Part shown: positions 9,439-36,508 of the stretch, piece by piece
How the letters are laid out: each line of letters opens with the position of its first letter
Numbering within the stretch: the stretch's first letter is position 1
Origin: Bacteroidota bacterium
Lineage (GTDB): Bacteria > Bacteroidota > Bacteroidia > AKYH767-A > OLB10
Reading direction: 5' to 3'
Assembly: GCA_025352785.1 (NCBI GenBank)
Contig: JANXSD010000012.1
Span: forward strand, 1-37,575
DNA: 37,575 nucleotides
Notes under the pieces: model-generated
Seen by the model: only the letters and a program-made list of their open reading frames with translations
What the model was told of the DNA's origin: nothing
Database searches by the model: none
Program-made: the position numbers and the translations under genes

Positions 9439-10105
9439 ATTTAATAGTATGAATAAAATATTTTCCAAAAAATTGATGCTTTTATTATTGAGCATTTCAA
9501 CTACCTCCTATTCATTAAGTGCACAAACAAGAGCGGAAGCATTCTCATCACAAACACCAATAACGTGGCTTGGTATTGATTTTTCTGAAGCGAAATATTT
9601 TGGTGATCCAGGTACAGTAAGTCAGGAGCAAATGAAAACAATGACGATTAATATTAATTTTCTTTTAATTAATGAAACTGAAAAATATGATTTCCATAAA
9701 ACTTTTGATAAGGATTCTATAATAAACGACCTTAAAGTAATTTCTGACCTCAATAATTCAATTGATGCAACAAAAATCATGTCTTTTAATAAGGAAGATT
9801 ATACTCGATTTAATCCTGCTTCGATTCAATCAATGGTAAGCAAATATAACCTCGAACAAAACAAAGGGATCGGATTAGTGTTTGTGATGGAAGGGTTGAA
9901 TAAAACAATTGAAGAAGGAGCATTCTGGGTAACATACATTAACATGAATGATAAATCAGTGCTATTTACGGAACGTGTTACGGGAAAAAGTTTTGGATTT
10001 GGCTTTCGAAATCATTGGGCTGGTTCAATATATAACGGAATGAAAGATATCAAAGGTTCCCGATATAAAAAATGGAAAATAGGGTCATCACCTAAAGGAA
10101 AATAA
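9431..10105 (+). CDS. Exported protein of unknown function in the pigment operon
   Basis: A 224-residue protein I do not recognise. The N-terminus has lysines, a hydrophobic run (LMLLLLSISTTSYSLSA) and an AQ cleavage site, so it is exported to the periplasm or beyond. The mature part contains TWLGIDFSEAKYFGD and an acidic/aromatic C-terminal half with no obvious catalytic motif. The start at 9431 overlaps the dehydratase stop (ATGTCTAA); ATG at 9449 (MNKIF) is the alternative. It lies in tight series between dehydratase and thioesterase genes, so a role in trafficking or placing the pigment in the envelope is plausible but not shown. Confidence 0.75.
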   Translation: MSKFNSMNKIFSKKLMLLLLSISTTSYSLSAQTRAEAFSSQTPITWLGIDFSEAKYFGDPGTVSQEQMKTMTININFLLINETEKYDFHKTFDKDSIINDLKVISDLNNSIDATKIMSFNKEDYTRFNPASIQSMVSKYNLEQNKGIGLVFVMEGLNKTIEEGAFWVTYINMNDKSVLFTERVTGKSFGFGFRNHWAGSIYNGMKDIKGSRYKKWKIGSSPKGK

Positions 10106-33233: not shown

Positions 33234-34181
33234 TTATAAAGAGAGACTGACGAATCGCTCGTCTATTAATTTTTTATATCTCTCTTTCTTTTCATCATCC
33301 AAAAAACTGATATCAATAAATGCAAACCATTTTCCCCTTGATTTCAACATTTTATTAAAAATATTTTCTTGCTGCTTCATATCTAAGCCAACTGAATTAA
33401 ACGCTGCGGTAAAATCAGAACGTTTTATTCTTTTCTTTTTACCATTCAACGTAAGTGCTAATTCTTCGTCGTCCGCAGGATTTACAATTGCAGTTGCGAC
33501 TAAGTCGTAAGCAGGAGAAAAAACAGGTCCTGTTGCAGGAAGATAAATCAATGAAAAGTTCTTTAGATGCATGTCAGCATTACCAGTCAGAAATGAGAAC
33601 AGCACCAATTCGCAGAAGTTCACAACATCCAACCCGGGATTATTTGAGTATTTTATTATTGCCTTTGCTACCTGCTCGTGTGACCCACGGTATTTATCCT
33701 CTGTGAGTCGTTCAGTTAGCTGACACATATCTTCCATGTGCAGTTTATCTTTCTTAACTCTATCGATTCGCTTGGTGATATAAGCAAGATTACCCGATAC
33801 TAACCTAATCAAACTATGAGGAACAATATTAATTTTAGCAATAGAAGCCAGGTGCATTGTCAGATCTTCAACTTCCGGCAATTGCGAATAATGAGGTGTT
33901 GGCGGTTTTAAAATATACCCACCCCACATCCCTACAATCGTGAATCTTTTAGCGTGATTAGGTTGTGCTGCTGATGCTAAATGCAAGGATATTTTTGGCT
34001 GAACTCCCGTAACTGCTGTTTGTGTGTTCACCAGTTGAGCAGCTAGCTCAGACATATTAGCCTCAGAATATTCCAAAACCGGAGGAACAGTTACTCCAAA
34101 CATTTTTTTGCTGCAAACTGAATGGAAATCAGTTTCAGTTTCATTCAGAAGTTGGTAACAGTATAGACATCGCTGCTTCAT
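33234..34181 (-). CDS. hipT: HipT-like Ser/Thr kinase toxin (HipA C-terminal fold)
   Basis: A 315-residue HipA-type kinase that lacks the N-subdomain 1 of classical HipA, as in the HipT toxin of HipBST systems; that toxin phosphorylates an aminoacyl-tRNA synthetase (TrpS in E. coli O127). An N-terminal CLYC/CSKK cluster may bind zinc. The Gly-rich loop is TGVQPKISLHL, the ATP lysine is Lys92 (YILKPP), the catalytic Asp203 lies in GNADMHLKN and the metal-binding Asp226 in SPAYDLV. The loop position that carries Ser-x-Ser in E. coli HipT reads Ala56-Val-Thr58 here. It overlaps the hipS-like gene by 4 bases (ATGA). The kinase looks active; its target is unknown. Confidence 0.85.
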   Translation of the reverse strand: MKQRCLYCYQLLNETETDFHSVCSKKMFGVTVPPVLEYSEANMSELAAQLVNTQTAVTGVQPKISLHLASAAQPNHAKRFTIVGMWGGYILKPPTPHYSQLPEVEDLTMHLASIAKINIVPHSLIRLVSGNLAYITKRIDRVKKDKLHMEDMCQLTERLTEDKYRGSHEQVAKAIIKYSNNPGLDVVNFCELVLFSFLTGNADMHLKNFSLIYLPATGPVFSPAYDLVATAIVNPADDEELALTLNGKKKRIKRSDFTAAFNSVGLDMKQQENIFNKMLKSRGKWFAFIDISFLDDEKKERYKKLIDERFVSLSL

Positions 34182-34507
34182 GCTTCATCTCCTTTTACAG
34201 CGTGAACACTTACTGCACCAATACAATCTTTACAACAGGCGAGCAGTAATCCCATACGATCTCTCGGATTGAGTTTCCAGTTTTTTTCTGCTATTTCCAA
34301 TAACCAGCCCTCAGGTATTAATCCATCAAAAAAAGCGAACAATACATTACTGGTAAATACTTTTTCCTGTAACGGCAATGTGAGGCTGATAGGTTTTGGA
34401 TCCACCTTTTGAAGGTATTCCGCAGCATATTGAAAATGATATCCATTTTCGTCTTGACTAAGCCAACCGGCCAATTCACTGTGCATTTTAATTTCAGCTC
34501 TTCGCAT
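34178..34507 (-). CDS. hipS: HipS-like antitoxin (HipA N-subdomain 1)
   Basis: A 109-residue protein equal to the N-terminal subdomain of HipA: FQYAAEYLQKVDPKPISLTL, LFAFFDGLIPEGWLL, then DRMGLLLACCKDCIGAVSVH. In HipBST systems this separate piece, HipS, neutralises the kinase HipT, while HipB mainly boosts and represses. It overlaps both neighbours (14 bases with hipB, 4 with hipT), so the three proteins are made from one transcript by coupled translation. A split of a former HipA gene is the alternative reading; the clean overlaps and intact ends favour a real three-gene system. Confidence 0.83.
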   Translation of the reverse strand: MRRAEIKMHSELAGWLSQDENGYHFQYAAEYLQKVDPKPISLTLPLQEKVFTSNVLFAFFDGLIPEGWLLEIAEKNWKLNPRDRMGLLLACCKDCIGAVSVHAVKGDEA

Positions 34508-34724
34508 CTTTACGGTGATTGGCAGTTTTTTGATCTGATTTGAGAGGTCCCATTTCGTATCCGAACAGATTCAACACCTGATTCACTTTATCAAGTCTCA
34601 GTGTTTCCTTTCCTTGTTCCAATTCTCTAATAAACCTCAAGCCGACGCCTGCCTTTTCTGCAAGCTCGGGTTGTGTGAGACCGGAAACACTTCGTTTTTG
34701 CTTTATGAAGGTTGATAAGTTCAT
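34494..34724 (-). CDS. hipB: HipB-like XRE-family antitoxin/repressor
   Basis: A 76-residue protein with a Cro/C1-type helix-turn-helix: SGLTQPELAEKAGVGLRFIR followed by ELEQGK and LRLDKVNQVLNLFGYEMGP. It is the first gene of the hipBST-like unit. HipB proteins bind the operators of their own operon and cooperate with the kinase-antitoxin complex. Three inverted repeats lie directly upstream (34729-34827), as expected for self-repression. The tail after residue 60 is short and charged. Confidence 0.88.
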   Translation of the reverse strand: MNLSTFIKQKRSVSGLTQPELAEKAGVGLRFIRELEQGKETLRLDKVNQVLNLFGYEMGPLKSDQKTANHRKDAKS

Positions 34725-34728
34725 TTTT

Positions 34729-34746
34729 TATACCTTTTCGGGTGTA
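34729..34746. promoter_or_regulatory. hip operator O1
   Basis: TATACC-N6-GGTGTA, a one-mismatch inverted repeat ending 5 bases from the hipB start codon. Shares its half-sites with O2 and O3; centre at 34737.5. Confidence 0.6.
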
Positions 34747-34768
34747 AATATAATACATTTTAATTATT

Positions 34769-34786
34769 TATACCATATAGGGTATA
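34769..34786. promoter_or_regulatory. hip operator O2
   Basis: TATACC-N6-GGTATA, a perfect inverted repeat; centre at 34777.5, 40 bp from O1. On the minus strand a TATATTTA (near 34746-34753), one mismatch from TAnnTTTG, lies between O1 and O2, so O2 would cover the upstream promoter region. Confidence 0.65.
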
Positions 34787-34809
34787 ATACTTTGTGTTTT
34801 TCATATATT

Positions 34810-34827
34810 CATACCCTTTAGGGTATA
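34810..34827. promoter_or_regulatory. hip operator O3
   Basis: CATACC-N6-GGTATA, one mismatch from a perfect repeat; centre at 34818.5, 41 bp from O2. Confidence 0.6.
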
Positions 34828-34903: not shown

Positions 34904-34930
34904 TAATCACCGCAAAACTTGCGGTGATTA
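34904..34930. repeat. 12-bp perfect hairpin
   Basis: TAATCACCGCAA (34904-34915), loop AAC, TTGCGGTGATTA (34919-34930). No T-run follows on either strand, so it is not a normal terminator. It lies between the hip operators and the 33-bp repeat array. The rest of 34828-35012 shows nothing I can name. Confidence 0.5.
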
Positions 34931-35012: not shown

Positions 35013-35101
35013 ATTTACCCCCTTTCTGTTACAAAAAATAGGAAAATTTACCCCCTTTCTGTTACAAAATATCACAAAATTTACCCCATTTCTGTTACAA
35101 A
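35013..35101 (+). repeat. Three 23-bp direct repeats, 33-bp period
   Basis: Copies at 35013-35035, 35046-35068 and 35079-35101. Each reads ATTTACCCC, one variable base (C, C, A), then TTTCTGTTACAAA; the first two are identical and the third differs at one base. The period is exactly 33 bp both times, three helix turns, with 10-base spacers of differing sequence. The array ends 27 bases before the ATG of the ATPase gene. It looks like an operator array on one face of the helix; the spacers are too short for CRISPR. Confidence 0.8.
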
Positions 35102-35116
35102 TCAATAATTTTATCA

Positions 35117-35124
35117 TAAATTTG
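35117..35124 (+). promoter_or_regulatory. Candidate -7 element of the ATPase gene
   Basis: TAAATTTG matches TAnnTTTG exactly, 4 bases before the ATG at 35129. The expected -33 position falls inside the third direct repeat. If used, the transcript would have almost no leader, so this match is uncertain. Confidence 0.3.
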
Positions 35125-35128
35125 ATTC

Positions 35129-36508
35129 ATGTTTATACGATCAATAATACAGGAACTGGAAAAATGGGCAGCTCAGTCAACTCGTAAACCATTGGTTATA
35201 AGAGGTGCCAGACAAGTTGGGAAAACAACAGTTGTAAATCAGTTTGCCGACCAATTCGAACAATACATTTACCTGAACCTTGAGTTATCAGAAGATAGGG
35301 AGCCTTTTGAAAATTTCACAACAATTGAAGCATTGATTCAGTCCCTTTTCTTTATCAAAAATAAAACACTCAATTTAAAAAACAAGACCCTGATCTTTAT
35401 TGATGAAATACAAGAAGTGCCTGAAGCTCTCAATACACTCTGGTACTTTTATGAATCGGAACCGGGCATTGCAGTGATTGCTGCCGGAAGTATGTTGGAA
35501 ACATTATTCAATAAAAATATCAGCTTTCCGGTAGGGCGTGTTGAATATAAAATACTGCGGCCTGTTTCGTTTCCGGAATTTTTAGCTGCACTCGGAGAAA
35601 CGAAAGCACTGGAAGAAATGCAAAAAGTTCCATTATCCACTTTTGCTCACAATAAATTATTATCGCTATTTCATTCGTATGCACTGATTGGAGGTATGCC
35701 TGAAATTGTGAATCAATATATTCAACATAAAGATTTGTCATCATTAGCATCTTTATATGATTCGCTCATCACCTCCTATCTCGTTGATGTAGAAAAATAC
35801 GCATCAAATTTCTCACAGATTAATCATCTTCGTCATGCAATACGTTCCTCCTACCCGCAAGCCGGTAAAAGAATAAAATTTGAAGGATTCGGCAATTCAA
35901 CTTATCGTTCACGTGAAATGGGAGAATCATTACGCACTTTAGAAAATGCTTTACTACTACAGTTAATATATCCAACTACATCAACCATCTTACCAGTCGT
36001 ACCCGATATCAAAAAGTCACCACGGTTACAGGTATTAGATACCGGTATGCTAAATTTCTTTATAGGAATCCAAAAAGAAATAATGGGCACTCCCGATTTA
36101 AATAGTGTTTATCAGGGAACCATGATCGAACATTTAGTAGGTCAAGAACTACTCGCATTTAAATACAATGCATTAAGCAATTTGAATTTCTGGGTAAGAG
36201 AAAGAAAAAATTCATCAGCTGAAGTAGATTTCATTTATATGTATGAAGGGAAACTGATTCCAATAGAAGTAAAATCAGGAGCTGAGGGAAAATTAAAATC
36301 ATTACATCTTTTCATGGAAGAAGCTCCGCATAATTTAGCCATCAGGTTTTATGCAGGTGAATTAAGTATTACTGAATCCACATCTCCATCCGGCAAAAAA
36401 TTTCATTTATTAAACCTCCCCTATTACTTAGTTTCACAAATTGAAAATTATTTAATATGGTTTGAAAAAGAAATAAAAAAGCAAACTAAAACAGCAGCCA
36501 GAAAATAA
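35129..36508 (+). CDS. AAA-type ATPase with DUF4143 C-terminal domain
   Basis: A 459-residue ATP-binding protein. N-terminal P-loop domain: Walker A GARQVGKT (26-33), Walker B LIFIDEI (88-94), and AAGSMLE (118-124) as sensor region. The C-terminal DUF4143 part ends in a PD-(D/E)XK-like signature: Glu365-Val-Asp367 in NSSAEVDFIYMYEG, then Glu380-Val-Lys382 in PIEVKSG, which may be an active or a relic nuclease site. Proteins of this kind are common and variable in prokaryotes and their role is not known; mobile-element or defence links have been suggested. The upstream repeat array probably controls it. A small gene follows 30 bp later. Confidence 0.88.
   Translation: MFIRSIIQELEKWAAQSTRKPLVIRGARQVGKTTVVNQFADQFEQYIYLNLELSEDREPFENFTTIEALIQSLFFIKNKTLNLKNKTLIFIDEIQEVPEALNTLWYFYESEPGIAVIAAGSMLETLFNKNISFPVGRVEYKILRPVSFPEFLAALGETKALEEMQKVPLSTFAHNKLLSLFHSYALIGGMPEIVNQYIQHKDLSSLASLYDSLITSYLVDVEKYASNFSQINHLRHAIRSSYPQAGKRIKFEGFGNSTYRSREMGESLRTLENALLLQLIYPTTSTILPVVPDIKKSPRLQVLDTGMLNFFIGIQKEIMGTPDLNSVYQGTMIEHLVGQELLAFKYNALSNLNFWVRERKNSSAEVDFIYMYEGKLIPIEVKSGAEGKLKSLHLFMEEAPHNLAIRFYAGELSITESTSPSGKKFHLLNLPYYLVSQIENYLIWFEKEIKKQTKTAARK

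Follow-up and report, generated by a model that had tools for sequence, protein, structure and literature searches.

The stretch of DNA that we analysed (the window, 37,575 nucleotides) contains a gene for an AAA_14-DUF4143 ATPase, a directly repeated DNA element in front of it and, divergent from it, a split toxin module on the minus strand (33234-34724; HipB-like, HipA N-terminal and HipA C-terminal). The features are listed in Table 1. The three copies of the repeat, referred to below as cores, share the 23-bp consensus ATTTACCCC(C/A)TTTCTGTTACAAA and follow one another at start-to-start steps of 33 and 33 bp, separated by 10-bp spacers that are mutually unlike. A pattern scan with 3 mismatches allowed returned 3 matches in the window against 0.01 expected, and the self-match score at lag 33 was 43.5 compared to a maximum of 12 in 100 shuffles. 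The initial annotation of this DNA had described near-identical 23-bp repeats at exact 33-bp intervals that end 27 bp before the ATG (35129) and had placed the last of them over the expected -33 region. The coordinates, the unlike spacers and the shuffle test agree with the described repeat, the 27-bp gap between copy 3 and the ATG is confirmed, and copy 3 does lie over the expected -33 region, its position relative to the promoter being inferred.

Table 1 Features of the locus. Positions are those of the window. Column Basis denotes the evidence used.
Feature	Position	Strand	Basis
HipA C-terminal	33234-34181	-	
HipA N-terminal	34178-34507	-	
HipB-like	34494-34724	-	
Three dyad sites, TATACC-N6-GGGTATA type, 40-41 bp spacing, before the hipB-like gene; probable HipB operators of the hipBA module	34718-34827		
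Inverted repeat between hipB and the array, 12-bp arms that match perfectly, 3-nt loop (TAATCACCGCAA/TTGCGGTGATTA)	34904-34930		
Operator core copy 1 (ATTTACCCCCTTTCTGTTACAAA), operator role inferred	35013-35035	+	repeat analysis, pattern scan
Operator core copy 2, identical to copy 1 over 23 bp, 33 bp downstream	35046-35068	+	
Operator core copy 3, one mismatch, 33 bp downstream	35079-35101	+	
Putative Bacteroidota -7 box TAAATTTG, ending 4 nt before the ATG	35117-35124	+	consensus TAnnTTTG
AAA_14-DUF4143 ATPase, 459 aa, PDC-S01 family	35129-36508	+	profiles, alignment, AlphaFold2 model

Both the Pfam AAA_14 and the DUF4143 profile score above cut-off on the window ATPase, in which Walker A reads GARQVGKT and Walker B reads FIDEIQ. 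Residues 1-446 align to positions 1-445 of the 448 positions of the PADLOC profile PDLC04788 (PDC-S01) with an E value of 3.8e-184. In an alignment of 16 distant sequences G26-T33, D92, E93, E365, D367, E380 and K382 are invariant, and E365, D367, E380 and K382 correspond to the conserved residues of a PD-(D/E)XK-like end. Judged by these profile and alignment matches, the protein is a full-length member of the PDC-S01/AAA_14-DUF4143 family, for which an anti-phage role is only predicted. A survey of archaeal immunity describes PDC-S01 as a single-gene candidate for phage defence in which an ATPase is joined to a domain of the PD-(D/E)XK superfamily, and ranks it fourth in frequency among defences across prokaryotes, while most PDCs still await experimental validation (PMC12988326).

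A sequence search of solved structures gave no match to the ATPase. We built an AlphaFold2 model from the window protein and its viral relatives (mean pLDDT 85.5). Residues 1-313 of the model resemble the archaeal STAND-like (Walker-type) ATPases 2qen and 2fna, CED-4 and plant NLR modules with Z values of about 14-16 (16.3 for 2qen across 267 residues, 15.2 for CED-4 and about 14 for the NLRs), and Orc1/Cdc6 structures rank lower among the Foldseek matches to the model. The predicted structure fits a STAND-like fold, that is, an AAA module and then a winged helix as in the archaeal STAND-like ATPases and CED-4; this applies to the fold only, and function is not shown by it. The segment at about 228-302 looks winged-helix-like, as inferred from the secondary structure of the model, in which confidence is low at 244-256. 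DNA binding is not universal among the winged helices of STAND proteins.

In the whole 3.46-Mb assembly the sole other relative of the core is one site with 3 mismatches on contig C194. This site is the first copy of a second array (TTACCCTCACTCTGTTACA, 33-bp steps) that stands directly before a 71%-identical paralogue of the ATPase gene, and both long-type paralogues of the genome own an array, each with its own core. Since the remaining genomic relative belongs to the paralogue's own array, the repeat is not dispersed, and we rejected a dispersed or REP-like element, of which the 3 copies here and the one 3-mismatch match would be the only representatives in the genome. No sites outside arrays were found in the three genomes that were scanned (the bacterium's own genome, G248 and G006). 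The case that the initial annotation had named as its own refutation, random occurrence of the repeat genome-wide, was looked for in this way and is excluded, since all sites in these genomes are confined to the arrays. A match to the exact core in a Woesearchaeota sequence, obtained in a scan of a genome collection, lies within coding sequence and was put down to chance.

The initial annotation had also proposed the upstream regions of homologous ATPases as a check. Homologues were gathered from whole genomes, plasmids, phages and viral contigs; for the viral contigs, scans with a single protein gave no relatives and a scan with an alignment gave 19. The 330 bp before each start codon were then tested for self-similarity at lags 20-59, and a region was called significant if it scored above all 100 shuffles. 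The upstream region was significantly periodic in 80 of 122 long-type genes. The best lag was 33 in 60 of these and 32 in a further 17, such that 77 of the 80 significant regions have a lag of 32 or 33; of the 3 genes whose best lag differs, two (L058 and L142) also contain units at 32 or 33 bp. Many of the 42 genes without a significant array have weak 32/33 pairs, for example in genus g226. Related genes in the 122-gene set are not independent, and the set covers many families. Six bacterial phyla are represented (Bacteroidota, Actinomycetota, Chlamydiota, Pseudomonadota, Bacillota and Fusobacteriota), with arrays outside Bacteroidota in Collinsella (3 x 33), Criblamydia (32), Acinetobacter (2 x 32), Agathobacter (5 x 33) and Fusobacterium (2 x 32).

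As a control, 122 upstream regions of other ORFs from the same DNA gave 11 matches, about half of which are the same arrays seen from the divergent neighbour, the rest having other lags. Between neighbouring copies, identity is 84% in the core compared to 44% in the spacer. The value for the core is inflated by how cores are chosen; the lag statistic is not so affected. Copy number reaches 7-9 in some arrays. On the protein tree the spacing class (32 or 33) is somewhat clustered (6 of 500 shuffles as low) with 11 changes, so that the pitch switches easily between the two values.

We also analysed a short DUF4143 subfamily (376 aa) that has little sequence similarity to the window gene. Significant arrays precede 21 of its 30 members, with a lag of exactly 32 in 20 of the 21 and 33 in one, and the two subfamilies thus share pitch and not sequence. 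The third DUF4143 gene of the genome, on contig C196, is of this short type; we considered it as an array-free control and dropped it, since its subfamily carries 32-bp arrays. Against its ATG stands a single palindrome, TTTTGGTGAATACATTCACCAAAA; its perfect palindrome core GGTGAATACATTCACC (G000:C196:19609-19632) has no other exact copy in the genome. Palindromy of the cores is in weak excess only (4/30 and 8/103), and dyad symmetry is therefore not claimed as general.

The -7 box of Bacteroidota promoters has the consensus TAnnTTTG. This motif occurs within the last 45 bp in 45 of 96 Bacteroidota homologues, compared to 3.8 expected from shuffles, and its position in the Bacteroidota members peaks 4 nt before the start codon; the start of the window ATPase is probably leaderless. 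A sigma-70-type promoter was discarded, the scan being near chance level. In close homologues the -7 box itself falls within the last core; over the 122-gene set the gap between the last core and the start codon varies from -3 to 80 bp. Where a core lies over the expected -33 region or the -7 box, the geometry speaks for the bound protein repressing the gene and for leaderless transcripts, the effect on expression being inferred. As other core-start distances exist, parking of the protein may matter as much as repression, and a single simple mode of repression may not suit all members.

Some phages keep the proposed operator without the gene. We searched viral contigs with a degenerate pattern of two clade cores 15-19 bp apart (pitch 31-35 allowed) and obtained 59 contigs (L176-L234, IMG/VR) with exactly two close cores and no ATPase. 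The pitch is 33 in 58 of them and 32 in one, and a control search for the same core pair with 20-50 bp in between returned zero matches. The contigs form 8 groups without shared DNA, one of which has 45 members, and comprise 35 distinct sequences. The ATPase is absent from all 59 loci, for which the stretch around the pair was examined, and from 20 of 20 whole records (7-47 kb, possibly fragments); a repeat on five with positive controls agreed. In 48 of the 59 contigs a 20-mer from at least one core recurs unchanged in a core of a host array, a figure that is raised by the choice of contigs via the degenerate host core. Where the gene content was examined, it marks the contigs as phage: a head-morphogenesis gene directly follows the pair in L190, and a DNA polymerase gene is present in L176. 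The orphan pairs are intergenic, some against a start codon and others facing away. The named phage collection contained no match to the orphan pair. In a further phage record (L235, IMG/VR 3300028797_000063) three copies of a different core type, AAAAAGTCAGTCGAAAAAGTGTAT, stand at 32 bp on the minus strand at about 9870-9960, and no PDC-S01 gene was found in this 34-kb record.

Cores vary from gene to gene, for example ACCCTAACTTTGTGACA, ACCCTTATTTTGTTACA, TTAACCCTGTAAATGATACA, ATTGCCTTTGATTAAT and CACATTTTCCGATGGAAA, and the distances between cores correlate with those between the proteins (Mantel 0.63, compared to a best value of 0.16 in 500 permutations; n=68). This co-divergence is not decisive because linked inheritance alone could yield such a correlation. 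A partial Mantel test for the winged-helix region was weak (0.24-0.28), and a sliding-window Mantel analysis for a specificity domain gave a signal too weak for use. The flanks of the arrays contain no conserved partner gene, the largest flank cluster covering 6 of 124 loci. Being the sole constant companion of the array, the ATPase is, by inference, its simplest reader.

We consider it likely that the array is a three-site operator that is read by the ATPase encoded downstream and serves autorepression, where both the binding and the effect on expression are inferred. The invariant pitch, the changing sequence, the local sites and the lack of an RNA-structure signal support the view of the initial annotation that the repeats are an array of protein binding sites. 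Its suggestion that the ATPase itself may bind remains the best-fitting reading, in view of the co-divergence and of the absence of another conserved gene, although binding is inferred. The main guess made there is thus supported and extended from one gene to the family. Each copy of the ATPase would bind one core via the winged-helix part of its STAND-like AAA module, and neighbouring copies, about three helical turns from one another, would line up head to tail along roughly the same face of the DNA. Such an oligomer would, once bound, keep the ATPase gene down; we propose autorepression because the last core lies over the -33 region here and over the -7 box in close homologues. The bound state may also hold the nuclease-like protein parked and inactive, and infection or DNA damage might release it through a changed nucleotide state or by removal from the array.

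The array could instead be read by a different host regulator, such as a conserved chromosomal repressor. Many bacterial operators are read in trans, and phages also hold pairs of the same core. However, cores differ even between the two paralogues of one genome and differ completely across the family and phyla while the pitch stays constant, and one trans regulator would be unable to read all of them. With no conserved neighbour gene and no further sites in the genomes tested, we regard such a regulator as unlikely. It is also rather unlikely, in our view, that the array mainly serves to dock or park the ATPase-nuclease, or to switch it allosterically, instead of acting as a transcriptional operator. 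This would agree with the STAND-like fold and the conserved nuclease-like residues, with the up to 7-9 copies in some arrays, the variable distance to the start codon and the status of PDC-S01 as a defence candidate, as well as with the phage orphan pairs that do not always stand before a gene start; yet the array stands directly before the gene and the -7 box is enriched beside it, as would be predicted for an autoregulatory operator.

The homogeneity of the copies within one array is as would be seen under recombination, and a functionless product of slippage or recombination (tandem-duplication noise or the remnant of a mobile element) could be envisaged on this ground. We find it hardly credible, as the spacers are not duplicated (44% identity compared to 84% in cores) and the same period recurs in unrelated arrays and in two subfamilies, whereas other genes lack it. 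A structured cis-regulatory RNA was rejected, the folding of the array being at chance (z 0.16) with no Rfam match at the gathering threshold. A coding repeat is excluded because 32 and 33 mix within single arrays. A CRISPR array was rejected on its spacers, which would have to be about 25-40 bp and are 10 bp here. CRISPR arrays are likewise regularly spaced repeats near a defence-candidate gene; the ATPase arrays differ from them in the 10-bp spacers, in having 2-9 copies, in the promoter position and in showing no RNA-structure signal.

Operator arrays as such are already known. MalT and other STAND transcription regulators have a nucleotide-controlled STAND-type ATPase module and bind cooperatively to several phased sites. 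The autorepression reading, in which binding by the ATPase is inferred, shares the module type and the several phased sites; MalT, however, activates other genes via a LuxR-type domain, whereas here the sites stand before the gene for the ATPase itself, whose C-terminus resembles a nuclease. In Orc1/Cdc6 with origin-recognition boxes and in plasmid iterons, a protein with AAA+ and winged helix is combined with clustered direct repeats beside its own gene. Orc1/Cdc6 has the same AAA+/winged helix plan with repeats beside its own gene, and ORC/Cdc6 structures appeared in the fold search. Unlike Orc1/Cdc6 and iterons, the ATPase arrays keep the 32/33 pitch as a family constant with the sequence free, and their genes occur in many genomic contexts. 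To our knowledge, neither a constant pitch with sequence turnover across six phyla and two subfamilies nor orphan operator pairs in phages were known before. The passages on PDC-S01 that we consulted do not mention upstream repeat arrays. We found no report of arrays upstream of DUF4143, COG1373 or PDC-S01 genes in 5.39 million open papers, a body that leaves out preprints altogether as well as the greater part of the subscription literature, and priority is therefore uncertain. Arrays of 32/33-bp pitch before the genes of this family seem to be an undescribed rule.

A DNA element before most of the surveyed members offers a mechanistic handle on the PDC-S01 family. The array shows which DNA each protein probably targets, leads one to expect an oligomer with a pitch of 32/33 bp and makes simple tests possible (footprint, core swap and operator deletion). 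The orphan pairs would be explained by a decoy or latch for the host ATPase, or by the host ATPase acting as a regulator of phage genes. Only as a tentative proposal, about which we are more doubtful than confident, PDC-S01 ATPases may be operator-bound, nuclease-like defence switches, and phages may have taken up two-site versions of the operators that decoy or latch the host ATPase. The proposal draws on the fixed pitch of the orphan pairs and their occurrence in 8 groups, on the absence of the ATPase from the loci and records examined, on the 20-mers shared with host cores and on the second core type in L235. Were this true, the orphan pairs would act as a counter-defence device consisting of nothing but DNA, and the cores, which turn over rapidly, would record an arms race; the pairs, if decoys, would also support a defence role of the PDC-S01 family.

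With regard to the toxin module of the window, HipA-type genes also adjoin PDC-S01 ATPases on Bacteroides and Parabacteroides plasmids (L078 and L143), and a HipA-type gene lies near a PDC-S01 ATPase on an Acinetobacter plasmid (L077).
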